From Candidatus Zipacnadum vermilionense (lineage in GTDB: Bacteria > Armatimonadota > Zipacnadia > Zipacnadales > Zipacnadaceae), in contig JALGSV010000001.1 in assembly GCA_029821755.1 (NCBI GenBank), positions 1 through 64,000 of the forward strand: DNA of 64,000 bases, written 5' to 3'. Shown here in pieces: positions 7,100 to 44,398 of the stretch; the first letter of the stretch is position 1; each line of letters opens with the position of its first letter. The position numbers were made by a program, and so were the translations under genes. The notes below the pieces were generated by a model, which saw only the letters and a list, made by a program, of their open reading frames with translations, made no database searches and was not told the origin of the DNA.

Positions 7100-7208
7100 C
7101 GGCGGAGGGACGCCTCGGGTGGGAGCGGAGGTGGGGTGCGTCTGAGCACACAATCTCTGCCCTGCCGGGTCGGTGCGCCCCGCGCTTACTCAAGGAGATG
7201 CTCGTCTC

Positions 7209-8243
7209 ATGCAAGCCCTAGTCAAGACCCAAAAGGGCGTCGGATTCCTAGAACTCCGCGAGGTCCCCGAACCGGTCGCCGGCCCCGGGGAGGCGCTGAT
7301 CGAGGTCAAGGCCTGTGGCATCTGTGGCACGGATATCCATGTCAAGCACGATACCTTCCCCTACTGGCCCCCGGTGATCCTGGGCCATGAGTTCGCGGGG
7401 GAGGTCGTGGCGCTCGGGCCAGGTGTGGAGGGTATCGAGGTCGGGGCCCGCGTGGTCGGCGAGCCGCATACGCGGCACTGCGGCCACTGCTACCTTTGCC
7501 GCACCGGCAACATCCAGATATGCGCCGCCAAGCGCTCGCCGGGGTGGGGGATAGACGGGGCCTTCGCCAAGTACGTGGTCATGCCCCCCAAGCTGCTGCA
7601 CCGGATTCCCGACACCATGTCCTACGAGGAAGCGGCTGTGGTGGAGCCGACGGCGAACGTCGTGACCGACTTGATCGAGCGGACCGGCGTGGTGGCCGGC
7701 GACTTCGTGGTAGTCTTGGGTCCCGGTCCCATCGGCCTGCTGGCCGCGATGGCCGCCCGTGCTGCCGGCGCACGCCACGTCGTCATCATCGGCACCCCGG
7801 TGGACGAGGAAGTGCGCCTGTCCAAGGCGCGTGAGCTGGGTATAGATACAGTCCTCAACGTGGGGGAGAGCAATCCGCTGGAGGTGGTCCTGGAGCTGAC
7901 CGGGGGCTGGGGAGCAGACGTGGTGGCCGAGTGCAGCGGGGCCGCTTCGGCCATCGCTTCCGCTGTTGATCTGGTGCGCAAGATGGGTAGACTATGCGCG
8001 ATAGGCTTGTCCGGTAAAGACAAGCTGGACTTCCCCTGGGATAAGGCGATGGCCAAGGTGTGCACCTTGACCTTCAACATGTCCACGCAGTACACCAGTT
8101 GGGACCGCACCATCGCCCTGATCGCCACCGGCCAGATCCCGGTCGCGAAGATCATCTCCCACCGAGAGCCGCTAGCGAACTGGGAGCAGGTATTCGCGGA
8201 CGTCGAGGCGCAAAAGGCGCTGAAGGCTTTGCTGATACCGTAG
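7209..8243 (+). CDS. Zinc-dependent medium-chain alcohol/polyol dehydrogenase
   Basis: 344 residues from the ATG at 7209 (AAGGAG at a good distance). The MDR family is shown by the catalytic-zinc region (CGICGTDIH, then GHEFAGEVV), a structural-zinc Cys set around HCGHCYLCRTGNIQIC, and a Rossmann motif (VLGPGPIGLLAAMAARAAGA). It is closest in style to sorbitol/threonine dehydrogenases, which oxidise a secondary alcohol of a sugar or polyol with NAD(P). Followed 75 bases later by a Gfo/Idh/MocA oxidoreductase, and then by the RuBisCO-like protein gene, so a sugar-catabolic step is likely. The substrate cannot be told from sequence alone. Confidence 0.88.
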   Translation: MQALVKTQKGVGFLELREVPEPVAGPGEALIEVKACGICGTDIHVKHDTFPYWPPVILGHEFAGEVVALGPGVEGIEVGARVVGEPHTRHCGHCYLCRTGNIQICAAKRSPGWGIDGAFAKYVVMPPKLLHRIPDTMSYEEAAVVEPTANVVTDLIERTGVVAGDFVVVLGPGPIGLLAAMAARAAGARHVVIIGTPVDEEVRLSKARELGIDTVLNVGESNPLEVVLELTGGWGADVVAECSGAASAIASAVDLVRKMGRLCAIGLSGKDKLDFPWDKAMAKVCTLTFNMSTQYTSWDRTIALIATGQIPVAKIISHREPLANWEQVFADVEAQKALKALLIP

Positions 8244-8318
8244 GTGCGGGTATTGCGGCGCCGACGGCGCAACATCCGCCCCTACACGGAGGCTCCCCGC
8301 CTCAGGAGGATAGAGATC

Positions 8319-9389
8319 ATGCCCGATTTGCCCATTGGCTTTGGCCTGCTTGGCGCCGGATTGGTGGCGCCCTTCCACGCTAAGGCCCTGAGTAATTCCA
8401 GTAAGGGCAAGCTCATCGCCGTCGCTGATGTGGACGCCGAGCGCGCCCGCAAGCTAGCCGAGGAGTTCGGGTGCAAAGCCTATGGCTCGCTGGAGGACCT
8501 GCTGGCCGACCCCGCGGTCGAGTGCGTCAACGTCCTGACCCCCAATGCCTACCACTACGACGCGGTCATCGCGGCCGCCCAGGCCGGGCGGCACGTGCTG
8601 GTGGAGAAGCCCCCGGCCATGAGCCTGCGCGAGACGGACAGCATGATCGCTACCTGCGCCGAGCACGCGGTGAAGCTGGGGATCGTCCTGCAGTGCCGCG
8701 TACGCAAGCCCATCCAGGCTATGAAGCAGGCGCTCGCCGAGGGCCGTTTCGGCCGGCCCCTGATGTGCTCCGCGCACATGAAGTGGTTCCGGTCCATCGA
8801 GTACTACCAGTCCGACGCCTGGCGCTCCTCGCGCAAGTCCGGGGCGGGCGTCACCATCCAGCACGCCTTCCACTACCTCGACCTGTGCCAGTACCTGATG
8901 GGCCCGGCCAAGCGCGTACTGGCCCGCATGGAGAACCTCGCCCACCCGGAGGTGTCTCTGGAGGACACGCTGGTGGCGACCATCGACTGGGAGAACGGCG
9001 GGATGGGCCTCGTGGAGGCCTCCACGGCGCTGTGGCCGGGTACCGACCTGCGCATCGAACTCAACGGTGTTGACGGCACGGCTATCATGGTCGGGGAGCG
9101 CATGGACACCTGGAAGCTGCGCGAGGATCAGCCCCAGGACGAGGAGATTAGTCAGTACGGCAGCGCCTCGGTAGGGACCGCCGCCACTGGGCCGGCCGAC
9201 TTCGCTTTCTTCGACCACCAGGTGGTGATCGACGACATGGCGGCGGCCATCGTGGAGGACCGGGAGCCCTGCATCCCCGCGGCCTCGGTCCGCCCCACTC
9301 TGGAGATGGCCTTGGCCATGTACCTGTCGGCCAAGGAGGGCCGGCCCGTGGACCTGCCTCTGGAGACAGAAAAAGGAATCTTTGAGTAA
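8319..9389 (+). CDS. Gfo/Idh/MocA family oxidoreductase
   Basis: 356 residues from the ATG at 8319 with AGGAGG upstream; the longer reading from 8244 is rejected because it translates a palindromic spacer. The N-terminal Rossmann fold (GFGLLGAGLVAPFHAKAL) and the EKPP motif (HVLVEKPPAMSL) define the family, and the C-terminal half is the usual alpha/beta substrate domain. The DLCQYLMG segment (after HAFHYL) matches the conserved catalytic-His area of the family. Members oxidise or isomerise sugars and inositols with NAD(P). It lies between a zinc dehydrogenase and a RuBisCO-like gene. Confidence 0.88.
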   Translation: MPDLPIGFGLLGAGLVAPFHAKALSNSSKGKLIAVADVDAERARKLAEEFGCKAYGSLEDLLADPAVECVNVLTPNAYHYDAVIAAAQAGRHVLVEKPPAMSLRETDSMIATCAEHAVKLGIVLQCRVRKPIQAMKQALAEGRFGRPLMCSAHMKWFRSIEYYQSDAWRSSRKSGAGVTIQHAFHYLDLCQYLMGPAKRVLARMENLAHPEVSLEDTLVATIDWENGGMGLVEASTALWPGTDLRIELNGVDGTAIMVGERMDTWKLREDQPQDEEISQYGSASVGTAATGPADFAFFDHQVVIDDMAAAIVEDREPCIPAASVRPTLEMALAMYLSAKEGRPVDLPLETEKGIFE

Positions 9390-9467: not shown

Positions 9468-9959
9468 GTGAATAGCAATGGCACAGAACGCAGAAGCGGT
9501 GTCGGGACCGGTTTGGGCAGGCGCGTTCCCCTGCTCGTGGTGGTGCTACTCGGCGCCGCGGTGGTCGCCAATGGCTGCGCCGCGCTCCTGGCCCTCGCGT
9601 CGTACGCCGCGGCCGCCAGCACCATCAAGTCGGTGATTGACCGCCTCGACCCGGACGATCCCTCTTACAGCCTGAGCGGCTACGTTTACATCGACCGCGC
9701 GGCTGACAAGATCGCCGTCCAGGCCGACGCCACTCTGCCCGACGGCGGCAACTGGACGCCTTACGCGGACGCCTCGGTGACCGTCGATACCGCGCCTCCG
9801 CGCTCCACTACGACGAACGAGGCGGGGTTCTTCGAGTTCACCGGCCTCCCCGTAACGGAAGCTACGCATATCCTGACCATCCTGACCCCTGAAGACGGCA
9901 AGGTTCAGTTCACGGTACGTCTGGACAAGCCGTCGATCGAGCCGCTATCCAGTCGCTAG
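9468..9959 (+). CDS. Predicted lipoprotein with carboxypeptidase-regulatory-like domain
   Basis: 163 residues from a GTG at 9468. A basic N-terminus and hydrophobic helix end in a lipobox-like VVANGC, so it is probably a lipoprotein. The later part (SLSGYVYIDR, then ASVTVDTAPPRSTTTNEAGFFEFTGLP) resembles a transthyretin-like/CarboxypepD-regulatory beta-sandwich. No enzymatic motif seen. It sits between two metabolic genes with moderate gaps on both sides, so membership of the same operon is uncertain. Confidence 0.6.
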   Translation: MNSNGTERRSGVGTGLGRRVPLLVVVLLGAAVVANGCAALLALASYAAAASTIKSVIDRLDPDDPSYSLSGYVYIDRAADKIAVQADATLPDGGNWTPYADASVTVDTAPPRSTTTNEAGFFEFTGLPVTEATHILTILTPEDGKVQFTVRLDKPSIEPLSSR

Positions 9960-10050: not shown

Positions 10051-11205
10051 GTGGCGTCCGACACCCATGACAGCATGATCGCTACCTACTACCTGGAGAC
10101 TGACGGGGACCTGGCGCAGGTAGCCCGGGACGTCATCACCCTCGAGACCACCGGCGGCTGGGATGGTTCCGGTGACCCACCACCCCTCTTCGCCGCCTGT
10201 ACCGGCGAGGTGATCTCCGTGGAGGAGGCCAGCCCCGGCTGCGGCACGGTGCAGGTCGCCTTCCCTCTCCTCAACTTCAACCTGGAGGAATCCGCCTTCG
10301 CCTCCCTGTGGCTGTCCATGGTCGGCGGAGGCACCCACGCCCTGCTGGCCTACCGCAAGTCCCGGCTGGTGGACTTCACCCTCCCCGCGAGTGCCCTGGC
10401 CTACTTCCCCGGCCCGCAGTTCGGGATGGAGGATACCCGCCGCCTGCTCGACCTGGCTCCCGGTACTCCGGTAATCGGGACCATCGTCAAGCCCACCTGC
10501 GGTCTAACCGCCGACGACGTGGCCGATTTGGTCTATCGCATGGCGGCCGGCGGGGTGCGCTTCATCAAAGACGATGAGAAAATGCTCAGCCCCGCGTACT
10601 GCCCCCTGCGCGAACGGGTGGAGAAGGTCTGCGCCGCCTTGCGCCGCGCCGAGGACGAGACCGGCCAGCGGGTGCTCTATGCGCCGCACATCACCACCGG
10701 CCCGCAACGTCTGGAGCGCTACGCGGAGATCGCTCTGGAGGCGGGCGCCAACGCGCTGATGGTCAACTTCCTCGCGGCCGGCTTCCAGTCGCTGGAGGTC
10801 CTCGCCCGCAACTTCGACGTACCCATCTACGCGCACTGCGGCGGCAAGGAGGCCTTTGGCCGCGAGCGGGGCCAGGGGGTGGCGCCGGAGGTGGTGGCCA
10901 AGTTCGCGCGGTTGCTGGGCGGCGACTACTTCCGCACCGGCGTCCTGGGCGGGTACCTGGTAGGCGGGACGACGGAGGAGCTGCACTCGCTGACCGCGGT
11001 GCTGACCGAGGACCTGCCCGGCCTTCGCCCCATGGCTCCGGTGCTCTCCGGTGGTCTCAAGCCGGACAACCTCGCCCACAACCTGCAGGCTTTCGGCTGC
11101 GACGTGCTGGCCCTGGCGGGAACGGGGCTGACTCGCCACCCGCAGGGGATTGCCTTCGCGGTGGCGGAGATGCTGAGGATTGCCGCAGAGGTAGCGAACA
11201 AATAA
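10051..11205 (+). CDS. RuBisCO-like protein (form IV)
   Basis: 384 residues from a GTG with AAGGAGG upstream. The RuBisCO large-chain fold is clear: GTIVKPTCGL (K147 matches the catalytic Lys175 of RuBisCO), GGVRFIKDDE (K173-D174-D175-E176 match the carbamylated-lysine metal site), H262, and SGG at 333-335. But the loop-6 GxxxGKxEG motif reads GVLGGYLVG, the second Lys of KPK is Thr, and the Arg after the active-site His is Cys. It therefore should not fix CO2. RuBisCO-like proteins act as enolases/isomerases or in transcarboxylation/hydrolysis of sugar-acid phosphates (for example OiaX of apionate catabolism, MtnW of methionine salvage). The neighbouring Gfo/Idh/MocA and SIS genes favour sugar catabolism. 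Confidence 0.9.
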   Translation: MASDTHDSMIATYYLETDGDLAQVARDVITLETTGGWDGSGDPPPLFAACTGEVISVEEASPGCGTVQVAFPLLNFNLEESAFASLWLSMVGGGTHALLAYRKSRLVDFTLPASALAYFPGPQFGMEDTRRLLDLAPGTPVIGTIVKPTCGLTADDVADLVYRMAAGGVRFIKDDEKMLSPAYCPLRERVEKVCAALRRAEDETGQRVLYAPHITTGPQRLERYAEIALEAGANALMVNFLAAGFQSLEVLARNFDVPIYAHCGGKEAFGRERGQGVAPEVVAKFARLLGGDYFRTGVLGGYLVGGTTEELHSLTAVLTEDLPGLRPMAPVLSGGLKPDNLAHNLQAFGCDVLALAGTGLTRHPQGIAFAVAEMLRIAAEVANK

Positions 11206-11286: not shown

Positions 11287-11312
11287 GAGGTGACGGGAGG
11301 GCCCGTCACCTC
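11287..11312 (+). terminator. Hairpin between the RuBisCO-like and SIS genes
   Basis: GAGGTGACGGG (11287-11297) pairs perfectly with CCCGTCACCTC (11302-11312) across an AGGG loop. There is no clear U-tract after it, so it may be a processing or attenuation hairpin instead of a full terminator. Confidence 0.45.
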
Positions 11313-11379: not shown

Positions 11380-12000
11380 ATGAGTAATGATGCAGAAGCA
11401 TTCGACGTTGCCGGGGAAGTGGCAACCTACCTGACTACCGAGGCTGACCTGCTCACGCGCCTCCCCCAGGAGCCGGTCGCGATCTTGGTGCAGATGATCA
11501 TCGAGGCCTACGAGAACGGCGGCAAGCTCATCACCATGGGCAATGGGGGGCACGGTGCCACCGCCTCCCACATGGTCAACGACATGGGCAAGCACCTGTT
11601 CGTCACCGACGACCGTACGGCGTTCGTGGTGAAGGAAAAGGGATTTCGCACGCTCTGTTTGAATGACAACTGGGCTACGCTCACCGCCTGGGCCAACGAC
11701 ATGGGTTACGACTCGTGCTTTGCGGCGCCCCTGGCCAACTGGGTAGAGCCGCACGATTTGGTACTGGGCATCAGCGGCAGCGGCAACTCGGCCAACGTCC
11801 TCAGGGCCTTCGAGGTCGCCCGGCAGGCGGGGGCCAAGACCGTCTGCCTCGCCGGCAGCGGCGGCGGACAAGCCCGCGACTTGGCTGATCTGGTCATTAC
11901 GGTGCCTTCCGAGAATGTCCTGCAGGTAGAGGATGTCCACATGACCATCGCCCATCTATGCACCGAGGTCGTGCGCAAATACGTGCAGAGGAACGGATAG
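11380..12000 (+). CDS. SIS-domain sugar-phosphate isomerase-like protein (GmhA-like)
   Basis: 206 residues from the ATG at 11380 with GGAGGAG upstream; the extension to 11341 lacks a ribosome site. The SIS motifs are visible: GKLITMGNGGHGATASHM (phosphosugar binding), GISGSGNSANVLRAFEVA and CLAGSGGGQARDLADL. Overall it resembles GmhA/DiaA-type proteins, which bind or isomerise phosphosugars. It sits four bases before the E1alpha gene, so the pair is co-transcribed. A role in turning over a phosphosugar produced by the upstream enzymes is plausible but not shown. Confidence 0.82.
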   Translation: MSNDAEAFDVAGEVATYLTTEADLLTRLPQEPVAILVQMIIEAYENGGKLITMGNGGHGATASHMVNDMGKHLFVTDDRTAFVVKEKGFRTLCLNDNWATLTAWANDMGYDSCFAAPLANWVEPHDLVLGISGSGNSANVLRAFEVARQAGAKTVCLAGSGGGQARDLADLVITVPSENVLQVEDVHMTIAHLCTEVVRKYVQRNG

Positions 12001-12004
12001 AACC

Positions 12005-12985
12005 ATGCCAGATATGACCGTCCCGCCGCTGCCGCCGGAGACCATGCGCGCCCTCCTGCAAGGGATGATGCGCGTCCGGGCTTTCGAGGAGGCTGTACAC
12101 GACCTCTACCAGCGCAAGCTGCTCCCCGGTATGTCCCCCCACCTCTCCGCCGGTCAGGAGGCTGTCGCTGCTGGCGTGTGCCTGCAACTGCGGCCGGATG
12201 ACTACATGGTCACCACGCATCGCGGCCACGGCCACTCCCTGCTCAAAGGGATGGACGCTCAGCGCATGATGGCGGAGCTGTGCAGCAAGGAGACCGGCTA
12301 CTGCCACGGGCGCGGCGGCACCATGCACATCGCCAGCCCCGAGGTCGGCTGCCTGGGAGCCAATGGCATCGTCGGGGCCGGGTTACCCATCGCCGTCGGA
12401 GCCGGGCTCTCCATCCAGTACCGGGGTACCGATCAGGTCTGCGTGGCGTTCTTCGGGGATGGCGCCAGCAACCAGGGGACCTTCCACGAGTCGGTCAATC
12501 TGGCCACCGCCCGCAAGCTGCCAGTGGTCTTCGTGTGCGAGAATAACATATACGCTCTGTCCACCAACTTTGCCCGCACCGGCGCCACCCCCAATGTGGT
12601 AGACCGCGCTCGGGGCTACGACATACCCGGCGTTACCGTCGACGGGATGGCGGTCGAAGGCGTCTACGCGGCAACTACCACGGCGCTGGAGCGGGCCCGC
12701 AGCGGGCAAGGCCCCACGCTTATCGAGGCCAAGACATACCGCTACTACGGCCACGGCGCCAGCGACCATCGGCCCTACCGCACCAAGGAAGAGGAGGCGC
12801 AGTGGCGCTGCTCGGATGCCATCCAGTGCTATGGCGACCTTTTGATCGAGCGCGGGGTAGCGACCGCCGCCGAGAGGGATGACCTCAGCGCTCGGGCCGC
12901 CGCCGAGGCGCAGGCTGCCGTCGACTTCGCCGTGTCCAGTCCCGACCCCGACCCGGCCCGCGTCGGGGACTACGTCTTCGCTTGA
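12005..12985 (+). CDS. 2-oxoacid/acetoin dehydrogenase E1 alpha subunit
   Basis: 326 residues, the usual length of PDH/acetoin-type E1alpha. The ThDP-binding motif runs from GDGASNQGTFHES (from residue 151) to CENNIYAL (178-185). RGHGHSL and the HIASPEVG region match the phosphorylation-loop/active-site area. With E1beta and E2 it would decarboxylate a 2-oxoacid (or cleave acetoin) and pass an acyl group to lipoyl-E2. The gene begins four bases after the SIS gene and is followed 19 bases later by E1beta. Confidence 0.9.
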   Translation: MPDMTVPPLPPETMRALLQGMMRVRAFEEAVHDLYQRKLLPGMSPHLSAGQEAVAAGVCLQLRPDDYMVTTHRGHGHSLLKGMDAQRMMAELCSKETGYCHGRGGTMHIASPEVGCLGANGIVGAGLPIAVGAGLSIQYRGTDQVCVAFFGDGASNQGTFHESVNLATARKLPVVFVCENNIYALSTNFARTGATPNVVDRARGYDIPGVTVDGMAVEGVYAATTTALERARSGQGPTLIEAKTYRYYGHGASDHRPYRTKEEEAQWRCSDAIQCYGDLLIERGVATAAERDDLSARAAAEAQAAVDFAVSSPDPDPARVGDYVFA

Positions 12986-13004: not shown

Positions 13005-13979
13005 TTGCCAGTCATGACCTATCGGGATGCCATCAACGCCGCGCTAGCCGAGGAACTTGAGCGTGATGAGCGGGTCTTTTTGCTGGGGGAGGATGTAGGC
13101 CTATTCGGCGGCGCCATGGCCGTAACCAAGGGCCTGTACGAGCGCTTTGGGGAGCGGCGGGTGCAGGATATGCCGATCTCTGAGTCGGCGATTGTGGGAG
13201 GGACGCTCGGCGCTGTCCTCACCGGCCTGCGACCAGTGGCCGAGATCATGTTTATCGATTTCGTGGGCGTGTGCATGGACCAGATCGTCAACCAGATCGC
13301 CAAGGTCCGCTACATGTTGGGCGGGCAGGTGGAGGTGCCGCTGGTCATTCGCACCCAGGGCGGCGGGGGCAAGAGCTATGCCGCCCAGCACTCGCAGAGC
13401 CTGGAGGCCTGGTTCATGCACACCCCGGGCCTTAAGGTCGTCATACCCTCCACTCCGGCCGATGCCAAGGGACTGCTCAAGTCAGCTATTCGCGACAACA
13501 ACCCGGTGCTCTTTATCGAGCACAAATTACTGTACAACGAGAAGGGCGAGGTCCCGGAGGGAGAGCACTTGGTGCCCCTGGGTCAAGCCCGCGTGGTCCG
13601 CGAGGGTTCCGGCCTGACTATCGCCACTTACTCGCGCATGGTGGGGCTCGTGCAGCAAGCCGCGGAGGGCCTGGCGGCCGAGGGTACTGAGGTGGAGATC
13701 GTAGACCTGCGGACGCTTACGCCTCTCGACGAAGAGACCATGTTCGCCTCCGTGCGGAAGACCGGCCGCTTCCTGGCGGTCGAGGAGGGCCACCTGACGG
13801 CCGGGGTCGGGGCTGAACTGGTCGCCCGAGTAACGAAGAACTGCTTTGACTACCTGGACGGGCCGCCCGAACGCGTAGCGGCCCAGGACCGCCCCATCCC
13901 CTGCGCGCCTGCGCTGGAGAAAGCCACGTTGCCTCAGGTCGAGGACATCCTGACGGCCGCCCGCGCGCTGGTTGGGTAG
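13005..13979 (+). CDS. 2-oxoacid/acetoin dehydrogenase E1 beta subunit
   Basis: 324 residues from a TTG at 13005 (GAGGTG seven bases upstream); an ATG at 13014 is possible but too far from the site. Family motifs: LLGEDVG near the N-terminus, PISESAIVGGTLGA, EIMFIDFVGVCMDQIVNQ, HTPGLKVVIPSTPADAKGLL and a C-terminal transketolase domain (VEEGHLTAGVGAELVARV). It pairs with E1alpha into an alpha2beta2 ThDP enzyme. No E3 (lipoamide dehydrogenase) gene is present in this cluster. Confidence 0.9.
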   Translation: MPVMTYRDAINAALAEELERDERVFLLGEDVGLFGGAMAVTKGLYERFGERRVQDMPISESAIVGGTLGAVLTGLRPVAEIMFIDFVGVCMDQIVNQIAKVRYMLGGQVEVPLVIRTQGGGGKSYAAQHSQSLEAWFMHTPGLKVVIPSTPADAKGLLKSAIRDNNPVLFIEHKLLYNEKGEVPEGEHLVPLGQARVVREGSGLTIATYSRMVGLVQQAAEGLAAEGTEVEIVDLRTLTPLDEETMFASVRKTGRFLAVEEGHLTAGVGAELVARVTKNCFDYLDGPPERVAAQDRPIPCAPALEKATLPQVEDILTAARALVG

Positions 13980-14022
13980 AGGGTGGCGGCACGGAGGGCC
14001 GCTAGGGCACGAACACACCATC

Positions 14023-15210
14023 ATGATCACCGAAGTCTTTCTTCCCCAACTCACCAGCACCATGGAAGAGGGGATCGTCGCCAACTGGCTCAAGGCCGAG
14101 GGAGACGCGGTCGCGCTTGACGAACCCCTTGTCGAGATCGAGACCGACAAGGCGGTCATGGAGCTCGAGTCGCCGGCCACGGGCGTGGTCCTGAAGATTC
14201 TGGCTGAGCCGGGGGACACCTGCCTGGTGCTAGCCCCGCTGGCGCTTATCGGGGAACCGGGCGACGACCTCAGCGCCTACGAGCCGCGCGCCACCGCAGC
14301 GCCGGTTCCGGTGAGCGCCCCCGCTCCCGTAGAGGAGTCGGCTGCGCCCGCCGTGGCCGTCCGGCCCGAGGGCCGCATCGTCGCCTCGCCGCGTGCCCGC
14401 CGGGTGGCGAAGGAGTTGGCCGTGGATCTGTCCGGGCTTACTGGCACGGGCCCCGAGGGCCGCATCACCGAAGAGGACGTACGGCGCGCCGCCTCGGCGG
14501 CCACTGCCGCGGCTCCTCCAGCGGCCCCCGGAGAGATCGTCCCCTTCCGCGGCATGCGCAAGGCGGTCGCCGCCGCCATGTCCCGGAGCAAGCGGGAGAT
14601 TCCTCATTTTTACGTGACCTCGCAGGTAGACATGGCCGCTGCGAGTTGCCTGCTCGCCGACCTCAAGCCGGCCTACGCCGAGCAAGGCGTGAAGCTCACC
14701 TATACCGCGCTGGTCGCCAAGGCTACCGCTGGGACCCTCAGTGAGATGCCACAACTCAATGGCTGGTACACAGAGGAAGGCATACAGATGCTGCCTGCGG
14801 TGAATCTGGGGGTAGCCGTGGCGGCGCGCGAGGGGATTGTCGTGCCGGTCCTGCGCGAGGCTTCTTGCCTGGACCTTCTGACGATCGCCCGCACGCTGCA
14901 GGACCTGGTCGAGCGAGCGCGGGGGGGCGTCCTCTCCGCCGCGGCCCTCAGTGACCGCAGCTTTACGCTGTCCAACCTGGGCGGGCTAGCGGTGGACCAG
15001 TTCGCCGCGATCATCAATCCCCCTGAGGTAGCCATTCTCGCCATGGGACGGGTCAAGGAACAGGTGGTGGCCTTCCAGGGAGAGGTGCAGATCCGCTCGC
15101 AGATGAACCTTACCCTCTCCTGCGACCACCGGGCCGTGGACGGCGTGGTGGCGGCGAAGTTCCTGCAGCGGCTGGGGATAATCCTGCAAACGCCCGAGAC
15201 TCTGGCCTGA
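14023..15210 (+). CDS. Dihydrolipoamide acyltransferase E2
   Basis: 395 residues from the ATG at 14023. Domains in order: one lipoyl domain (lipoyl Lys43 in IEIETDKAVMELES-type context), a peripheral subunit-binding domain (ASPRARRVAKELAVDL, then GRITEEDV), and a catalytic acyltransferase domain ending in the active-site CDHRAVDGVVAAKFLQ. Proline/alanine-rich linkers separate them. It forms the core of the complex whose E1 subunits are encoded just upstream. The ribosome site is weak, so coupling to the upstream gene is likely. The acyl group handled (acetyl or other) is not evident. Confidence 0.9.
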   Translation: MITEVFLPQLTSTMEEGIVANWLKAEGDAVALDEPLVEIETDKAVMELESPATGVVLKILAEPGDTCLVLAPLALIGEPGDDLSAYEPRATAAPVPVSAPAPVEESAAPAVAVRPEGRIVASPRARRVAKELAVDLSGLTGTGPEGRITEEDVRRAASAATAAAPPAAPGEIVPFRGMRKAVAAAMSRSKREIPHFYVTSQVDMAAASCLLADLKPAYAEQGVKLTYTALVAKATAGTLSEMPQLNGWYTEEGIQMLPAVNLGVAVAAREGIVVPVLREASCLDLLTIARTLQDLVERARGGVLSAAALSDRSFTLSNLGGLAVDQFAAIINPPEVAILAMGRVKEQVVAFQGEVQIRSQMNLTLSCDHRAVDGVVAAKFLQRLGIILQTPETLA

Positions 15211-15240
15211 GGGCGACGGGTGCAAAGAGGTTGTGTCCAC

Positions 15241-15609
15241 GTGGAAGAGGCACGCAAATCGCTGGAAAACGCTCGGCAGCACGTGGACAAGCCTTGGGGC
15301 GGCTTTGATCGGTACACGCTCAACCAGCCCTCCACGGTCAAGATCCTGACGATAGCCCCCCAGCAGGCGCTCAGCCTGCAGACGCACGAGCAGCGGGACG
15401 AGTTGTGGGTGGTGATCGAGGGAGAGCTTGAGATTCAGGTGGCAGACACGGTCCACGTCGCGACGCCCGGGCAGGAGTTCTTCATCCCCCGCCGCGCTCT
15501 CCACCGCCTCACGACAGGCGCCCAGCCGGTCCGGGTGCTCGAGATCTCCCTCGGCGAGTTCGACGAGCAAGACGTAACGCGCCACGAAGACCGTTACGAC
15601 CGACGGTAG
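15241..15609 (+). CDS. Cupin protein, mannose-6-phosphate isomerase type II-like
   Basis: 122 residues from a GTG at 15241 with AGAGG ten bases upstream; a GTG at 15220 gives seven more residues. Single cupin domain: KPWGGFDRY, then LTIAPQQALSLQTHEQRDELW (His and Glu as metal ligands), FFIPRRALHRL for the second His, and EISLGEFDEQDV at the end. This matches the C-terminal domain of ManC/AlgA and stand-alone ManA type II. It probably isomerises or binds a phosphosugar. It is the last gene of the RuBisCO-like/E1-E2 cluster. Confidence 0.8.
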   Translation: MEEARKSLENARQHVDKPWGGFDRYTLNQPSTVKILTIAPQQALSLQTHEQRDELWVVIEGELEIQVADTVHVATPGQEFFIPRRALHRLTTGAQPVRVLEISLGEFDEQDVTRHEDRYDRR

Positions 15610-15787
15610 TTCCCCAGGCCCCCTTACTTGTCCCTTCTTCCGGGGAGATTAGGCGGGGTGTGAGCCGCCACTGTCCTCAACCGTGCAGGAATCGTGCGCT
15701 TGTGTGTAGAACGGCATTCACTAGACCGGAGGGTCTCCCTGCGCTACCTGGAGAGGTGGCCCAATGACTTCTTGGAGGAACCTAACC

Positions 15788-17005
15788 ATGTTTCAGGCTA
15801 GACATCTTACCGTTGCCGTCTTGCTGTTGGCAGCCGCGGTGGTCCTGGTGTTGGGCGGATGCCCCAAGCCCACTCCGCCACCGCCCCCGCCGGTTGGCCC
15901 CGCGCTGGGCCCCACGGCCCAGGCTCCCTCGGGTGAGCCGATCAAGATCGGTGCCATCCTCAGCCTCTCGGGCCCCGGGGCGCCTTTGGGGACCCCGGAG
16001 CGCGACACGCTCACTATGCTGGAGAAGTCCATCAACGACGCGGGCGGCGTGAACGGTCGTCCGCTGAAGGTCATCGTCGCTGATGACCAGACCGACGAGA
16101 ACCAGGCCCTGGCCGCGGCCAAGCGGTTCGTCGAAAGTGACAAGGTGGTCGCCTGCATTGGTCCTTCCACCAGCCCCACTACCTTGACGATCATGCCGGT
16201 GTTCAAGAAGGCGGAGATTCCCCTGATCTCCTGCGCCGCCGCCGTCAAGATCACTCAGCCGGTGGAGAAGTATGTCTTCTCCACGGCGCAGCCCGATGTG
16301 ATCGCGGTCGCCAAGCTGATGGACTACCTGAAGGCGAAGGGTTTCAAGAAGCTGGCGGTGGTGGCGGACTCGAACGCCTTCGGGCAGAGCGGAGTCGAGG
16401 CTCTCGAAGAGCAGGCCCCGAAGAATGGGATGCAGATCGTGCGTAAGGAGAGCTTCGGCTCCAAGGACACGTCGATGACCACGCAGTTGACCAAGATCAA
16501 GGGCGCCGGCGCCGATGCCATTGTCTGCTGGGGCACTAACCCGGGCCCGGCGATCGTGGCCAAGAATGCTCGAGAGCTAAAGATCACCACACCGCTGTTC
16601 ATGAGCCACGGTGTCTCGAACGCCAAGTTCGTGGAGCTGGCCGGCCCGGCCGCCGACGGGGTCATCTTTCCCAGCGGCCGCATCCTGGTCGCCGACCAAC
16701 TGACCGATACCGACAAGCAGAGGTCGGTCTTGCTGGAGTACACCAAGGCCTTCCAGGCCGCCAACGAGGGCAAGACGCCCGACCACTTCGGCGGACACGC
16801 CTGGGACGCGATGCACATGATCGTCGCGGCCCTCAGGAGCGCCGGTCCCGACCCCAAGGCGCTCGCCGCAGCCCTGGAGCAGACCAGGGATTTCGTCGGC
16901 GTCGGTGGCATCTTCAACCTCAGTCCCACCGACCATAACGGCCTGACCAAGGACGCCTTTGTCCTAGTGACCGTCAAGGAAGGTAAATGGGAGATCGTGA
17001 AGTAG
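15788..17005 (+). CDS. ABC transporter substrate-binding lipoprotein, LivK family (copy 1)
   Basis: 405 residues from the ATG at 15788 (GGAGG nine bases upstream). Lipoprotein signal ends in VLGGC, followed by a proline-rich spacer. The periplasmic type I fold is of branched-chain amino-acid binding protein type: IKIGAILSLSGPGAPLGTP, INDAGGVNGRPLKVIVADDQ, CIGPSTS, CWGTNPGPAIV and SATDHNGL-like ending. It is very similar to the second copy at 17197 and is separated from it by a strong terminator. Ligand not known; aromatic acids or amino acids are the usual range. Confidence 0.9.
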   Translation: MFQARHLTVAVLLLAAAVVLVLGGCPKPTPPPPPPVGPALGPTAQAPSGEPIKIGAILSLSGPGAPLGTPERDTLTMLEKSINDAGGVNGRPLKVIVADDQTDENQALAAAKRFVESDKVVACIGPSTSPTTLTIMPVFKKAEIPLISCAAAVKITQPVEKYVFSTAQPDVIAVAKLMDYLKAKGFKKLAVVADSNAFGQSGVEALEEQAPKNGMQIVRKESFGSKDTSMTTQLTKIKGAGADAIVCWGTNPGPAIVAKNARELKITTPLFMSHGVSNAKFVELAGPAADGVIFPSGRILVADQLTDTDKQRSVLLEYTKAFQAANEGKTPDHFGGHAWDAMHMIVAALRSAGPDPKALAAALEQTRDFVGVGGIFNLSPTDHNGLTKDAFVLVTVKEGKWEIVK

Positions 17006-17042
17006 TACGCGCGCCGCGGTCGGGCCGGGAGACCGTCATGGG

Positions 17043-17088
17043 AACGCGGGGAATCCTTCCATTCACCGAAGGATTCCCCGCGTTTTCT
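17043..17088 (+). terminator. Rho-independent terminator after LivK copy 1
   Basis: A perfect 17-base-pair stem (17043-17059 with 17068-17084) around an 8-base loop, followed by TTCTCT. It isolates the first binding-protein gene from the second, so this gene can be expressed on its own. Confidence 0.88.
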
Positions 17089-17196
17089 CTGCGGGGGGAG
17101 GGATTGGACAGTGCCGTGTCGAAGAAGGTCTAGTCAGGTTGGAGGACCTGATGCGCCGCCCGGAGGGGCTACGACACAACCTGAGGAGGAAGTACC

Positions 17197-18417
17197 ATGT
17201 ATTGGTCTACGTCCCGTGTCGTAGTCGTAGTTTTGGTCTGCCTTGTAGGAGTAGCCCTGATCGCTAGCGGCTGTCCCAAGCCGCCGGCCCCCGTCGTTAC
17301 GCCGCCGATTCCCCCGCCCACCCAGCCCGCCGTGACGCCGCCTTCCGGCGAACCCATCAAGGTGGGCGCCATCTTCAGCGTCACCGGCCCCGGCGCCCCC
17401 CTGGGCACTCCGGAGAAAGAAACCGTGGCACTGGTGGAGAAGATGGTAAATGACTCCGGCGGCATCAACGGCCGCCCCTTGGAGATCATCGTCGCTGACG
17501 ACCAGAGCGATGAGAACCAGGCCCTGGCCGCCGCCAAGCGGCTCATCGACAGGGACAAGGTCGTTGTGGTGGTCGGCCCCACCATCAGCGGCACCAGTCT
17601 GGCGATCATCAAGACCTTCGAGGACGCCAAGCTCCCGCTGGTCTCCTGCGCCGCCTCGATCAAGATCACCCAGCCGGTCAAGGAGTGGGTCTTCTCCACT
17701 GCCCAGCCGGACACTCTGGCCGTCGCCCGCCTGATGGAGTATCTCAAAGCGAAGAAGATCAGCAAGATCGCCGTGGTCTTCGACTCCAACGCCTTCGGCA
17801 AGAGTGGCATGGACGTGCTGGAGAAGCAGGCGCCGGATAGTGGCGTGACCATCGTCGCCAAGGAGAGCTTCGGCTCCAAGGACACGACGGTGAGCTCGCA
17901 GTTGACGAAGCTGAAGTCGGCAAAGCCGGAGGCCGTTATCTGCTGGGGGACCAATCCTGGCCCGGCAGTTGTGGCCAAGGAAATGAAGCAGATGAAGTTT
18001 GACGTGCCACTGTTCATGAGCCACGGCATTGCCAATCGTAAGTTCATCGAGCTGGCTGGCGACGCCGCCAACGGTGTGGTCTTCCCGGCCGGCAAGCTAC
18101 TAGTAGCCGAGACGTTGCCTGCCTCTGAGCCCCAGAAGCAGGTCCTGCTGGACTACACCAAGGCCTTCAACGACAAGTACCAGAAGGGTCCGGATACCTT
18201 CGGCGGCCACGCCTGGGATGCCATGCAGCTCACTGTCCAGGCGCTCAAGGACGCTGGCACCGATCCGACGAAGCTGCGCGCGGCCATCGAGAAGACCACC
18301 AAGTTCGTCGGGGTCACCGGTATCTTCAACCTCAGCGCCACTGACCACAATGGTCTGACCAAGGACTCGTTTGTCATGGTTACGATCAAGGACGGCAACT
18401 GGGTCCTGGCAGAGTAG
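17197..18417 (+). CDS. ABC transporter substrate-binding lipoprotein, LivK family (copy 2)
   Basis: 406 residues with a lipoprotein signal (CLVGVALIASGC) and GAGGAAG ahead of the ATG. It shows the same blocks as copy 1: IKVGAIFSVTGPGAPLGTP, INGRPLEIIVADDQSDENQ, CWGTNPGPAVV, FGGHAWDAMQ, SATDHNGLTKD. The two are clear tandem duplicates. It precedes the permease and ATPase genes across a hairpin at 18463-18489. Together they form a complete Liv-type importer. Confidence 0.9.
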   Translation: MYWSTSRVVVVVLVCLVGVALIASGCPKPPAPVVTPPIPPPTQPAVTPPSGEPIKVGAIFSVTGPGAPLGTPEKETVALVEKMVNDSGGINGRPLEIIVADDQSDENQALAAAKRLIDRDKVVVVVGPTISGTSLAIIKTFEDAKLPLVSCAASIKITQPVKEWVFSTAQPDTLAVARLMEYLKAKKISKIAVVFDSNAFGKSGMDVLEKQAPDSGVTIVAKESFGSKDTTVSSQLTKLKSAKPEAVICWGTNPGPAVVAKEMKQMKFDVPLFMSHGIANRKFIELAGDAANGVVFPAGKLLVAETLPASEPQKQVLLDYTKAFNDKYQKGPDTFGGHAWDAMQLTVQALKDAGTDPTKLRAAIEKTTKFVGVTGIFNLSATDHNGLTKDSFVMVTIKDGNWVLAE

Positions 18418-18462
18418 AGGCGGGCGCACCGGAGGGGCCGATTCCTTCTACCGATACGCACT

Positions 18463-18489
18463 GGGGGCGGCACATATTGTGCCGCCCCC
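18463..18489 (+). terminator. Hairpin between binding-protein and permease genes
   Basis: GGGGGCGGCAC (18463-18473) pairs with GTGCCGCCCCC (18479-18489) around ATATT; no U-tract. Probably a partial terminator or mRNA-stabilising hairpin that lets the binding protein be made in excess. The stem resembles that of the terminator at 26522. Confidence 0.6.
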
Positions 18490-18500
18490 CGGTATGACCT

Positions 18501-19379
18501 ATGCACGGCCCTGAATTGCTCCAATACCTGATAACCGGGCTGACCCAGGGCGCGATCTATGCCTTGGTGGCCGCGGGCTTCAACCTTGTCTACGCCGCTA
18601 CGGGCATCATCAATTTCGCCCAAGGCGAGTTCGTCATGCTCGGCGGCCTACTCGCGGTCACCTTCGTCGCCTGGCATATGCCGCTGGCAGCGGCCGTGCT
18701 GCTGCCCATATTGGTGGTAATGGCCGTGGGTGCTGCGGTGCACTGGTTCGCCATCCGCCCCTTGCGCCGCGCCCATGTCGTTACCCTAATCATGATCACC
18801 ATCGGCGTCTCGGTCGTCCTGCGCGGTGCTGCGCGGCTGATCTGGGGCGCTGACTCTCACCCTCTGCCCCCGTTCACCCCCGGGGACTCGATCGGTCTCG
18901 GGGGGGCTACCGTACAGCCCCAAAGCCTCTGGATTGTCGGCGTCACCGCCGTGGCGGGGGTGGCTCTGGCGCTCTTCTTCCGCCGCACGCTGATGGGCCG
19001 GGCCATGGTCGCCTGCGCCCTTAACTCTCGGGCCGCCCGCCTGGCCGGCATTCGCGTCGACCGCATGAACATGTGGGCCTTCGCCTTCGCCGGCGGCATC
19101 GGTGCCCTGGCCGGCAGCGTCTTGACCCCCATGACCTTCACCTCCTACGACGTGGGCACCTTGCTAGCGCTGAAGGGCTTCTGCGCAGCGGTGCTGGGAG
19201 GGATCGGCAATAACATGGGTGCGGTGCTGGGCGGGCTGATCCTGGGCGTGGTGGAATCCCTAGGGGCCGGGATGTTCTCGGGCTACAAGGACGCTTTCGC
19301 TTTCGTGGTGCTGCTTCTGGTCCTGTTCTTGCGCCCCGCGGGATTGCTGGGAGTGGGCTTGCGGAGGGATGACCAGTGA
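18501..19379 (+). CDS. livH: Branched-chain amino-acid-type ABC permease
   Basis: 292 residues with about eight hydrophobic segments. Family motifs: QYLITGLTQGAIYALVAAGF at the N-terminus, YAATGIINFAQGEFVMLGG, and the EAA-like region GNNMGAVLGGLILGVVESLG near the C-terminus. It is the LivH-type half of the membrane channel. Its stop overlaps the LivM start by four bases. The gene symbol denotes family, not a proven substrate. Confidence 0.9.
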   Translation: MHGPELLQYLITGLTQGAIYALVAAGFNLVYAATGIINFAQGEFVMLGGLLAVTFVAWHMPLAAAVLLPILVVMAVGAAVHWFAIRPLRRAHVVTLIMITIGVSVVLRGAARLIWGADSHPLPPFTPGDSIGLGGATVQPQSLWIVGVTAVAGVALALFFRRTLMGRAMVACALNSRAARLAGIRVDRMNMWAFAFAGGIGALAGSVLTPMTFTSYDVGTLLALKGFCAAVLGGIGNNMGAVLGGLILGVVESLGAGMFSGYKDAFAFVVLLLVLFLRPAGLLGVGLRRDDQ

Positions 19380-20398
19380 GGGGCGGCGGCTGGGCGCGGT
19401 CTCGGATACTCGGACTGACGCTGTTCGCGGCGGCCATCTTCACCTTCGGCCTGACCGTGCACAGCGGCTATCTGCTGGGGATGGCCGTACTCATCGCTCT
19501 GCACGCCTTGGTCGCGCTCGGCCTGGGACTGCTCATGGGTTGGGCCGGTCAAATCTCTCTGGGCCACGCCGGCTTCTACGGCTTGGGCGCTTACGCCTCC
19601 GCCATCCTCACGACCCGCTTCGGCCTCAACCCCTGGCTGGCCCTGGTGCTGGGCGCGGTGGGCACCGGGCTGATCGCCTTCGCGGTCGGCAAGCCCACCC
19701 TGCGGTTGCGCGGGCACTACCTGGCCATGGGTACCCTCGGCCTGGGGCTGATCATCTGGACGGTCTTCAACCAGGCGGCCACCTGGACCGAGGGGCCCTC
19801 GGGCATCCGGGACATCCCGGTTCTGTCCCTGGGCGGCCTGGCGCTAGACAACGACCAACGCTTCTACTGGCTGATCTGGCCGGTGGTCCTGGTCGCGGTT
19901 ATGCTGGCCGGGAATCTCATCAACTCGCGCATGGGGCGGGCGTTGCGGGCGCTGGGGGAGAACGAGGGCGCGGCGGCGGCTGCCGGAGTGGACGTGGCCC
20001 GGGCCAAACTGGGCGTCTTCACGCTCAGTGCGGTGCTGGCCTCAATTGCCGGAAGTTTCTACGCCCACTACGTAACCTTCGTCAATCCCAGCCCCTTTGG
20101 TTTCGCTTTGTCCATTCAGCTCATGACCATGGTGGTAGTCGGTGGGGAGATGACGGTGTGGGGTCCGCTGGTAGGCGCCGGAGTGCTGACGGTCCTGCAT
20201 CAGGTCCTGGCGATCAGCGCCCAGCGCATTCCGGCGATGGAGGGTTTGGAGGTCGTGGCTTACGGCGCGGTGCTGGTCATCTTCCTGCTGTTCCGACCCC
20301 AGGGCCTAGTCGCCCCTCTGCGCCGCCGCGGGGCACCACCGCGAGCCGCTGAGCCTCCGGCCCCGCGAGCTGACGAAGTGGTGGGTGAGGCCTCGTGA
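19376..20398 (+). CDS. livM: Branched-chain amino-acid-type ABC permease
   Basis: 340 residues from a GTG at 19376 that overlaps the livH stop (GTGA). Multiple membrane segments, with LivM motifs GWAGQISLGHAGFYGLGAYA, RLRGHYLAMGTLGLGLI and GPSGIRDIP. The C-terminal tail after FRPQGLVAPL is a short Arg/Pro/Ala-rich cytoplasmic extension. It forms the heterodimeric channel with LivH. Confidence 0.9.
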   Translation: MRGGGWARSRILGLTLFAAAIFTFGLTVHSGYLLGMAVLIALHALVALGLGLLMGWAGQISLGHAGFYGLGAYASAILTTRFGLNPWLALVLGAVGTGLIAFAVGKPTLRLRGHYLAMGTLGLGLIIWTVFNQAATWTEGPSGIRDIPVLSLGGLALDNDQRFYWLIWPVVLVAVMLAGNLINSRMGRALRALGENEGAAAAAGVDVARAKLGVFTLSAVLASIAGSFYAHYVTFVNPSPFGFALSIQLMTMVVVGGEMTVWGPLVGAGVLTVLHQVLAISAQRIPAMEGLEVVAYGAVLVIFLLFRPQGLVAPLRRRGAPPRAAEPPAPRADEVVGEAS

Positions 20399-21165
20399 GC
20401 GTACCACTCCTGCGCATCGAGCGTCTCCGCAAGGACTTCGGCGGCGTCCATGCGCTCAGCGAGGTCTCCTTCAGCGTGCGTGAGGGGGACATCCATGCTC
20501 TCATCGGGCCCAACGGCGCGGGGAAGACGACACTGTTCAACTGCGCCACGGGAGTCTTTTCGCCCAGTGAGGGAGAAGTCTGGTTCCGGGAGCGGCGCCT
20601 CACGGGCCTGGCGCCCCACCGCATTGCCGCCCGGGGGGTGGCTCGGACGGCCCAGAATCTGCGTCCCTGGCGCGAAATGACGGTGTTAGAAAACGTCCTG
20701 GTCGGCTGCCACCTGTTGGGCCACGCGGGGATGGTAGCGGGCGCCCTGCACCTGCCGAGTAGCCTCCGGGAGGAGCGCCGCCTACGCGAGATCACCATGC
20801 GCCGTCTGGAGCAAGCCCATCTGGCCGAATATGCCGACCACCTGGTCGGCGAGTTGGCCCTCGGTCAGCAGCGTATGGTGGAACTGACCCGCGCCCTGGC
20901 CTCCAATCCTCGCATGCTCATGCTCGACGAGCCGGCCGCTGGCCTGCACACCCGCGAGACGCAGGAACTGGGCGGCCTGCTGACCTCCCTGCGCGGGCAG
21001 GGCCTGACTGTCCTGCTGATTGAGCACGACATGAGCCTGGTCATGTCCATTTGCGACCGCGTAGTGGTCCTGGACTACGGGGAGAAGATCGCCGAGGGCG
21101 CCCCCCGCGAGGTGCAGGCCGACCCGCGCGTGGTCGCCGCGTACCTGGGGGAAGAGGTGTCATGA
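20395..21165 (+). CDS. livG: ABC transporter ATP-binding protein, LivG type
   Basis: 256 residues from a GTG at 20395 overlapping the livM stop (GTGA). Walker A GPNGAGKTT, the LivG-specific long insertion after GVARTAQNLRPWREMTVLENV, a signature-like region (LALGQQRMVELTRALASNP), Walker B MLMLDEPAAGL and H-loop IEHDMSLVMSICDRVVVLDYG. The signature reads ALGQQ instead of LSGGQ, as is common in LivG. It energises the importer together with LivF. Confidence 0.92.
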   Translation: MSVPLLRIERLRKDFGGVHALSEVSFSVREGDIHALIGPNGAGKTTLFNCATGVFSPSEGEVWFRERRLTGLAPHRIAARGVARTAQNLRPWREMTVLENVLVGCHLLGHAGMVAGALHLPSSLREERRLREITMRRLEQAHLAEYADHLVGELALGQQRMVELTRALASNPRMLMLDEPAAGLHTRETQELGGLLTSLRGQGLTVLLIEHDMSLVMSICDRVVVLDYGEKIAEGAPREVQADPRVVAAYLGEEVS

Positions 21166-21911
21166 CTCCCGACGGCCGCTCCCTTCTACGTCTGAGCAGC
21201 GTCCGTGTCTTCTACGATAGCGTGGAAGCGCTCAAGGGTGTCTCCTTACACGTCAATGAGGGGGAGATCGTCGCGCTGGTGGGAGCGAACGGGGCGGGCA
21301 AGAGCACCACGCTGAACGCGATCTGCGGCTTGACGCCGGTGCGCGCCGGGGAGATGACACTACAGGGGCAGAGCCTGACGGGGTTGCGGCCGGACCAAGT
21401 GGTGCGTCTGGGCATCACCCAGGTCCCGGAGGGGCGGCAGATCGTGGGGGAGATGACCGTGTTGGACAACCTGGTCCTGGGCGCCTACCTGCGCCTGCGC
21501 GCGCGGGAGAAGGCCGCCGTTCGCGAGGACCTGGAGCGTATCCTGGGCATGTTTCCCATCCTGCAGGAGCGGCGTAATCAGGCTGCGGGGAACCTGTCCG
21601 GCGGTGAGCAGCAGATGCTGGCCGTAGGGCGGGCGCTGATGGCCCGGCCGCGCTTGCTTCTGCTGGACGAACCCACCATCGGCTTAGCTCCGCGCCTGGC
21701 GCACCAGATTCTGGACACCGTCGCCGGTCTGCGTGCCCAGGGCACGACCATCCTGCTGGTGGAGCAGAACGTCCTGGCCAGTCTCCGGGTGGCCGACCGC
21801 GGGTACGTACTGGAAACCGGGCGCGTGGTGCTGGAAGGGCCCTCGGACGAACTGCTGCGCAATCGTGACGTCCAGCGGGCCTACCTGGGTAAGGATTACG
21901 AGGAGGTGTGA
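21162..21911 (+). CDS. livF: ABC transporter ATP-binding protein, LivF type
   Basis: 249 residues from the ATG at 21162 overlapping the livG stop (ATGA). Walker A GANGAGKST, signature NLSGGEQQMLAVGRALMARP, Walker B LLLLDEPTIGLAP, and H-loop region VEQNVLASLRVADRGYVLETG, all typical of LivF. Its stop overlaps the start of the following acyl-CoA ligase gene, so the ligase is translated with the transporter. Confidence 0.92.
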   Translation: MTPDGRSLLRLSSVRVFYDSVEALKGVSLHVNEGEIVALVGANGAGKSTTLNAICGLTPVRAGEMTLQGQSLTGLRPDQVVRLGITQVPEGRQIVGEMTVLDNLVLGAYLRLRAREKAAVREDLERILGMFPILQERRNQAAGNLSGGEQQMLAVGRALMARPRLLLLDEPTIGLAPRLAHQILDTVAGLRAQGTTILLVEQNVLASLRVADRGYVLETGRVVLEGPSDELLRNRDVQRAYLGKDYEEV

Positions 21912-44130: not shown

Positions 44131-44154
44131 ACACGCACAATCGAATAGAGGTTC

Positions 44155-44346
44155 GCTTGCGCAGGGCTCAGCCCCGGAGGGGGCTGTCCAAAGGAAGACG
44201 GTGCAAATCCGTCACTGCCCCGCAACTGTAAGCGGCGACGAAACCCGCATGTAAGCCACTCGGCTGGACAGGCCGGAGCCTGTCCTTAGGCTGAGCAAGG
44301 CGCGGGAAGTAGGATGACCCGCAAGTCAGGAGACTGCTGCGCAAGC
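44155..44346 (+). promoter_or_regulatory. Cobalamin (AdoCbl-type) riboswitch
   Basis: Conserved blocks in order: GGAAGACGGTGCAAATCCGT, CACTGCCCCGCAACTGTAAG, GTAAGCCACTCGG, GCGGGAAGTAGGATGACCCG, and the B12 box AAGTCAGGAGACTGC. The outer P1 stem pairs 44155-44164 with 44337-44346 (ten base pairs). Cobalamin binding would change folding of the downstream terminator at 44399. It is upstream of a pilin-like gene and the btuF-cobUTS genes. Confidence 0.93.
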
Positions 44347-44398
44347 CGTCGGCTCATTCCTCTCGAGGGCGGAGGATAGGTCTTTTTTGTCTTTACAG

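Follow-up and report, generated by a model that had tools for sequence, protein, structure and literature searches.

A predicted non-carboxylating RuBisCO-like protein of Armatimonadota and its relatives: a candidate superclade whose gene neighbours point to an undescribed route of sugar breakdown

To our knowledge, only a handful of reactions of RuBisCO-like proteins (RLPs) are known, and most RLP branches are without an assigned function. The substrate of MtnW is a diketone, and RuBisCO too yields diketones, in a beta-elimination side reaction. The DeepYkr RLPs of R. rubrum and R. palustris are 1,3-isomerases of a ketose-1-phosphate, 5-methylthioribulose-1-phosphate (PMC5893883), and the OiaX/OiaC enzymes act on 3-oxo-isoapionate-4-phosphate as decarboxylase or transcarboxylase/hydrolase (PMC6302742). 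The view that most RLPs are isomerases and/or epimerases is cited in PMC7325909, where a Hakuba actinobacterium is proposed to have an RLP with an epimerase role and relatives in Planctomycetes are mentioned.

Here we describe an RLP encoded in a window of 64,000 nucleotides (the whole stretch of DNA analysed), which belongs to a metagenome-assembled genome (MAG) of 4.39 Mb from the Armatimonadota. No further RuBisCO-family gene was found in this genome. The RLP gene and its surroundings comprise the following features.

7173..8243, plus strand: zinc-dependent dehydrogenase, nearest to the threonine 3-dehydrogenase and scyllo-inosose 3-dehydrogenase families, under cut-off
8244..9389, plus strand: Gfo/Idh/MocA oxidoreductase, true start probably internal
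9468..9959, plus strand: lipoprotein-like ORF between the Gfo/Idh and RLP genes, sub-threshold carboxypeptidase-regulatory-like match
10051..11205, plus strand: RLP, 384 amino acids, core group of the superclade described below
11287..11312, no strand: perfect 11-bp inverted repeat with a 4-nt loop and no T-run, between the RLP and SIS genes (read from the sequence)
11380..12000, plus strand: SIS-domain aldose-ketose isomerase, GmhA type (Pfam/NCBIfam)
12005..12985, plus strand: TPP-dependent dehydrogenase E1 alpha (Pfam/NCBIfam)
13005..13979, plus strand: E1 beta, 63% identical to the E1 beta of genome G272 and at most 55% to its own paralogues
13972..15210, plus strand: E2 acyltransferase with lipoyl and E3-binding domains (Pfam/NCBIfam)
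15220..15609, plus strand: small cupin, mannose-6-phosphate isomerase C-terminal type (Pfam/NCBIfam)
15764..21911, plus strand: two LivK-like binding proteins and a LivHMGF ABC transporter (LivHMGF named from sequence)

The RLP reading frame opens with GTG, preceded by AAGGAGG. Its sole strong Pfam match is PF00016 (RuBisCO_large; residues 127-381, 155.8 bits, cut-off 30.1), and it scores far under the cut-off of every NCBIfam equivalog for RuBisCO or RLPs: 197.6 bits for form III RuBisCO (cut-off 497), 170 for OiaX (NF042437, cut-off 700), and 111.8 and 151.3 for the MtnW models (cut-offs 513.6 and 409). An AlphaFold2 model computed with 18 relatives as input (pLDDT 90.8, pTM 0.90) superposes over its full length on form III RuBisCO 2cwx (Z 44.7, 377 residues, 2.2 A), the best match both in fold and in PDB sequence, and on MtnW 2oem (Z 44.2). 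The protein is thereby a full-length member of the RuBisCO fold, with an N-terminal alpha/beta domain and a TIM barrel carrying the KDDE metal site.

In RuBisCO numbering, which is used throughout, the RLP retains K175, K201, D203, E204, H294, S379, G380, G381 and G403. It shares the Mg-carbamate ligands of 2cwx but lacks K177, R295, H327 and K334; the full set of changes is K177 to T, R295 to C, H298 to K, H327 to R, K334 to Y and G404 to T. A reading made earlier from the sequence only had described an intact metal site and a lost loop-6 lysine, as borne out by the conserved KDDE and SGG motifs and by loop 6 itself (RTGVLGGYLVGG), where Tyr occupies the K334 position. It had counted loop 6 and two other positions as altered; the loop 6 change holds, but the extent was understated, since there are six substitutions. 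The signature T177, C295, K/R298, R327, Y334 and T404 occurs in all nine core-group sequences (K or R at 298), which come from at least four phyla (Armatimonadota, Chloroflexota, Acidobacteriota and Planctomycetota), and the six fixed substitutions are therefore not a one-off mutation. Both the core group and the distant RLPk group have lost K177, R295, H327 and K334 while keeping the metal ligands, K175 and H294 invariant. Under established RuBisCO enzymology the loss of these four residues excludes carboxylation, so the RLP is predicted to be a non-carboxylase that should not fix CO2. A CO2-fixing RuBisCO of forms I-III is ruled out by K177T, R295C, H327R and K334Y together with a placement apart from the form I/III references. 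The retained metal ligands and K175 would instead predict enolate chemistry. No conserved Lys was seen at the general-base position of the MtnW type.

Two maximum-likelihood trees were built from the RLP, its relatives and references, the latter without DeepYkr, IV-GOS, IV-AMC or Hakuba/Moorella-type RLPs. The RLP falls in a superclade of 26 rows (support 100/99) with relatives from Armatimonadota, Chloroflexota, Acidobacteriota and Planctomycetota. It is composed of the core group, to which the window RLP belongs and which a branch supported at 95/83 separates from the remaining rows, of sister groups with YAHSGGRS or a similar motif, and of the divergent group RLPk, with KEDEN and HNGGIS-like motifs. 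The MtnW, IV-Photo, form I/III and OiaX-containing clades all lie outside it; for IV-Photo, the RLP stands apart from 1tel and 2qyg (C. tepidum RLP and R. palustris RLP2). Placement within MtnW or another assigned clade, which would have undone the idea of an unassigned enzyme, was thus found for none of these four. No description of the superclade was found among open-licence papers, and we regard it, with a signature and gene contexts of its own, as previously unassigned and, at the level of sequence, distinct from the clades compared.

The OiaX-containing clade (17 rows, 100/100) includes 3nwr and RLPs encoded beside four-carbon-acid-sugar kinases; in the alignment it keeps R295 and K334, with S380 in 15/15. 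The window RLP resembles the OiaX/OiaC type in its RuBisCO fold, K175, KDDEKM metal site and H294, and in a sugar-catabolic context with dehydrogenases and kinases. However, it is only ~30-37% identical to the OiaX/OiaC-type and kinase-associated RLPs, lies in a separate clade, lacks R295, K334 and S380 and has other neighbour genes; a four-carbon-acid-sugar kinase (PF07005) was not found in the window genome. An OiaX or apionate-type RLP is ruled out by these residues, the separate 100/100 clade, the score of 170/700 bits and the PF07005 result, and the sugar-acid route similar to apionate degradation once suggested for this locus finds no support in the same clade, residue and kinase evidence. 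MtnW, the 2,3-diketo-5-methylthiopentyl-1-phosphate enolase (2oek, 2zvi), is alike in fold (Z 43-44) and metal site, but the RLP sits in a separate clade, lacks the MtnW base and has no salvage genes adjacent. The trees, the scores of 111.8/513.6 and 151.3/409 bits and the absence of mtn genes among the annotated window neighbours rule out MtnW (IV-YkrW) and agree with the earlier statement that the cluster is unlike methionine salvage. An MtnA-type gene does exist in the window genome, but since it lies on a different contig from the RLP and such genes also match in E. coli, its presence is uninformative for methionine salvage. The DeepYkr RLP is comparable as a non-carboxylating ketose-phosphate isomerase (the role proposed here) and in the small cupin encoded beside RLPs in cassette A, described below. 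The window RLP differs in having no immediate mtnP/mtnA neighbours and a cupin of the phosphomannose-isomerase type. The R. palustris structure 3qfw, which we take to be Rlp1, was not among the best 60 PDB matches of the RLP, and the tree holds no DeepYkr sequence.

Within the sister groups, one subgroup (L019 and L095, from genomes G058 and G256 of family f23) carries K201S and has Glu for H294, and its metal chemistry may be lost or changed; its RLP gene adjoins one for a GH141-like beta-helix protein. MtnP- and MtnA-like genes, named by eye from sequence, were also seen ~7-8 kb from a sister-group RLP in two congeneric genomes (L095:11692-12998 and L096:2-1419).

At the window locus, the neighbours listed earlier (zinc dehydrogenase, Gfo/Idh/MocA, SIS protein, E1/E2 and cupin) were correctly named according to Pfam. 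The lipoprotein-like ORF ends 91 bp before the RLP gene and probably has no part in the pathway. Downstream, 174 bp separate the RLP from the SIS gene, and the 11-bp hairpin in this gap is a possible transcript end or attenuation site; a promoter scan gave nothing exceeding chance. No kinase was found near the window RLP by homology. The E1/E2 set scores highest against pyruvate-dehydrogenase models, and three close E1 beta paralogues in the same genome rule out that it is the sole, housekeeping set. Whether the LivK/LivHMGF genes belong to the RLP route is uncertain, though they may. A phenylacetate-CoA-ligase-like gene and the Liv genes (15764-23218) run codirectionally downstream of SIS-E1-E2-cupin and may serve import and activation of a related acid. 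Elsewhere in the window, a cobalamin riboswitch was recognized at 44145-44355 (90.8 bits).

Because the gap and hairpin before the SIS gene leave the window ambiguous when taken alone, the neighbourhoods of the relatives are decisive. The DNA around the RLP relatives was therefore taken, and the neighbouring genes were mapped and assigned to families. Most loci come from MAGs, some on short contigs, and a single neighbourhood may hold assembly errors; the argument rests on recurrence. Three cassettes recur, each beside RLPs of both the core and RLPk subgroups, which are deeply split. Cassette A combines an MtlD-like dehydrogenase of the mannitol-1-phosphate 5-dehydrogenase family (3h2z) with a small cupin and mostly a UxaC-like amidohydrolase, whose nearest solved structures are 4i6v and the BH0493 uronate isomerase; it occurs at L017, L030 and L043 in the core group and at L022, L024, L025, L143, L144 and L147 in RLPk, and an IlvD/EDD dehydratase is additionally present at L030 and L148. 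Cassette B consists of Gfo/Idh, xylose-isomerase-like, alpha/beta-hydrolase and ribulose-phosphate-3-epimerase-like genes, at L033 (Acidobacteriota) and L039 (Pirellulales) in the core group and at L145 in RLPk. Cassette C, the GmhA-like SIS isomerase with E1 alpha and E1 beta, is shared by the window (core) and L146 of genome G272 (RLPk); both SIS copies retain H64, D68, E184 and H192, presumably the GmhA metal-ligand positions.

The earlier reading had proposed a search for co-occurring kinase or isomerase genes, and both are present beside the relatives' RLPs. A PfkB gene overlaps the RLP stop codon at L031, ends 3 bp upstream at L143 and is in the cluster at L147; PfkB, FGGY and a LacD-type (tagatose-bisphosphate-type) aldolase lie directly upstream of the RLP at L032; and a PPi-PFK kinase occurs at L044. 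An acetolactate-synthase (ALS)-like TPP enzyme is encoded beside the RLP at L025 and in the cluster at L148. The closest relatives of the window RLP, L017 and L030, the latter from a 'Candidatus Zipacnadia' MAG (G012) of the same family as the window genome, have neighbours other than those of the window. The window genome itself encodes a UxaC-like amidohydrolase (L103:7295-8635, on its contig C58) that shares 65% identity with the cassette A protein, but the RLP is absent there and no MtlD or cupin gene was found alongside; the sole MtlD-like gene of this genome is a distant one (34%). The window genome is thereby ruled out as a carrier of a cassette A set.

Several damaged RLP genes were encountered. 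At L148:9962-10408 (G008) only about the first 35 codons of the RLP remain, fused in frame to the cupin, with the rest of the IlvD/EDD-cupin-MtlD-TPP-enzyme cluster intact, either a natural deletion or an assembly collapse. The window's own family contains a truncated remnant (L150:9217-9759, G003) and a frameshifted RLP (L075:2-635, G007), suggesting repeated gene decay or assembly errors.

Linkage of this kind would be rare by chance. MtlD-type genes occur in 154/291 genomes of the phylum, mostly once per genome of several Mb, and in G021, G045, G025, G275, G276, G242 and G055 one lies within ~1.3 kb of the RLP; we estimate, rather than compute, that chance would produce this with a probability on the order of 1/1000 in each genome. 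Among the compared loci, the SIS proteins of the window and of G272 match each other best (199 bits; no other exceeds 157); scores from a separate profile, built from these two sequences, are inflated for that reason. None of 18 other loci with the best SIS matches has such E1 genes within 1.5-kb flanks. The recurrence of RLP, E1 alpha, E1 beta and SIS in a second genome, beside a divergent RLP, makes the earlier suggestion of an uncharacterised route with a 2-oxoacid dehydrogenase plausible and better supported than before.

We tentatively prefer, at a little short of even weight, the reading that the RLP is a non-carboxylating, enolising isomerase or epimerase of a phosphorylated keto-sugar (or keto-sugar acid). 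The recurrent sugar-phosphate neighbours point to an undescribed sugar-breakdown route, of which we infer reaction type, substrate class and direction as follows. The RLP would be a Mg-dependent, probably dimeric member of the RuBisCO superfamily, in which an alpha-hydroxyketone would be held through its carbonyl and hydroxyl groups by the D/E metal ligands and by the lysine at position 201 in carbamylated form. Abstraction of a proton would give an enediolate, and the proton would return at another face or another carbon; the likely acid/base is K175. One phosphate would still be bound at the glycine-rich site formed by SGG and AGTG, and K/R298, R327 and Y334 in place of H298, H327 and K334 would re-tailor the site for the other substrate end. 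Around this step, the catabolic route may draw on isomerases of the aldose-ketose type, a dehydrogenase for a sugar or sugar phosphate and a sugar kinase. The enzyme that cleaves the carbon-carbon bond would differ by genome, being the E1/E2 complex in the window and an aldolase or another TPP enzyme elsewhere. Phosphorylated sugars are argued for by the kinases, isomerases and LacD-type aldolase of the clusters, and the DeepYkr RLP gives a precedent for isomerising a ketose phosphate (PMC5893883); as the neighbours vary between genomes, a single substrate is not fixed. Against the isomerase reading stand the 174 bp and hairpin between the window RLP and SIS-E1-E2, the lack of a kinase found nearby and the missing conserved Lys at the base position of the MtnW type. 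Most cassettes also contain other isomerases, so that an RLP of this activity would be redundant in part if it did not act at a different step.

The main rival, which we judge unlikely though deserving serious weight, is that the RLP decarboxylates (or acts as a transcarboxylase/hydrolase on) a 3-oxo-sugar-acid phosphate other than the substrate of the apionate RLPs: an MtlD-like, Gfo/Idh or zinc dehydrogenase would make the 3-oxo acid, from which the RLP would free CO2 via a metal-bound enolate. A dehydrogenase gene does accompany the RLP in cassettes A and B and in the window, the uronate-isomerase-like and sugar-acid-dehydratase-family genes of cassette A point to sugar acids, and the RLP shares the FIKDDEKM motif with OiaX, which together with OiaC shows the RuBisCO fold to be capable of such chemistry (PMC6302742). 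However, R295, S380 and K334, fixed in the apionate-type RLPs, are absent, the clade is separate, and the kinases beside these RLPs are PfkB, FGGY and PFK rather than the four-carbon-acid type.

It is rather improbable that the RLP lies beside its window neighbours by accident, as its own transcription unit with partners elsewhere in the genome or with a non-metabolic role. The gap and hairpin before SIS, the 91 bp to an unrelated lipoprotein-like ORF upstream and the differing neighbours of L017 and L030 would fit, but in G272 orthologues of E1 alpha, E1 beta and SIS are again associated with an RLP, a divergent one, and the remaining cassettes are equally sugar-metabolic. Elimination or tautomerisation by the RLP to a 1-deoxy-diulose or other alpha-diketone or acyloin, then cleaved by TPP enzymes (acetoin-dehydrogenase-like E1/E2 giving acyl-CoA in the window, the ALS-like enzyme at L025 and L148), seems improbable as well. 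TPP enzymes recur by the RLP in the window and G272 (E1 alpha/E1 beta) and at L025 and L148 (ALS-like), and the diketone substrate of MtnW and diketone side products of RuBisCO lend some precedent, but most clusters have no TPP enzyme and the E1/E2 scores are nearest to pyruvate-dehydrogenase models, even though other E1 sets exist in the genome. The more specific proposal, that acetoin-dehydrogenase-like E1/E2 thiolytically cleaves to acyl-CoA a sugar phosphate of the diketo or acyloin type made by the RLP, we hold to be very doubtful; we know of no RLP with this reaction, which, if true, would mean a novel way of breaking down phosphorylated sugars.

The fixed signature of the core group and the recurrent neighbourhoods of the superclade reduce the question of RLP function to a short list of enzyme assays. 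The superclade would show how the RuBisCO fold is re-tailored, its metal site kept while the contacts to CO2 and to the second phosphate are replaced, to serve sugar chemistry without CO2 fixation.
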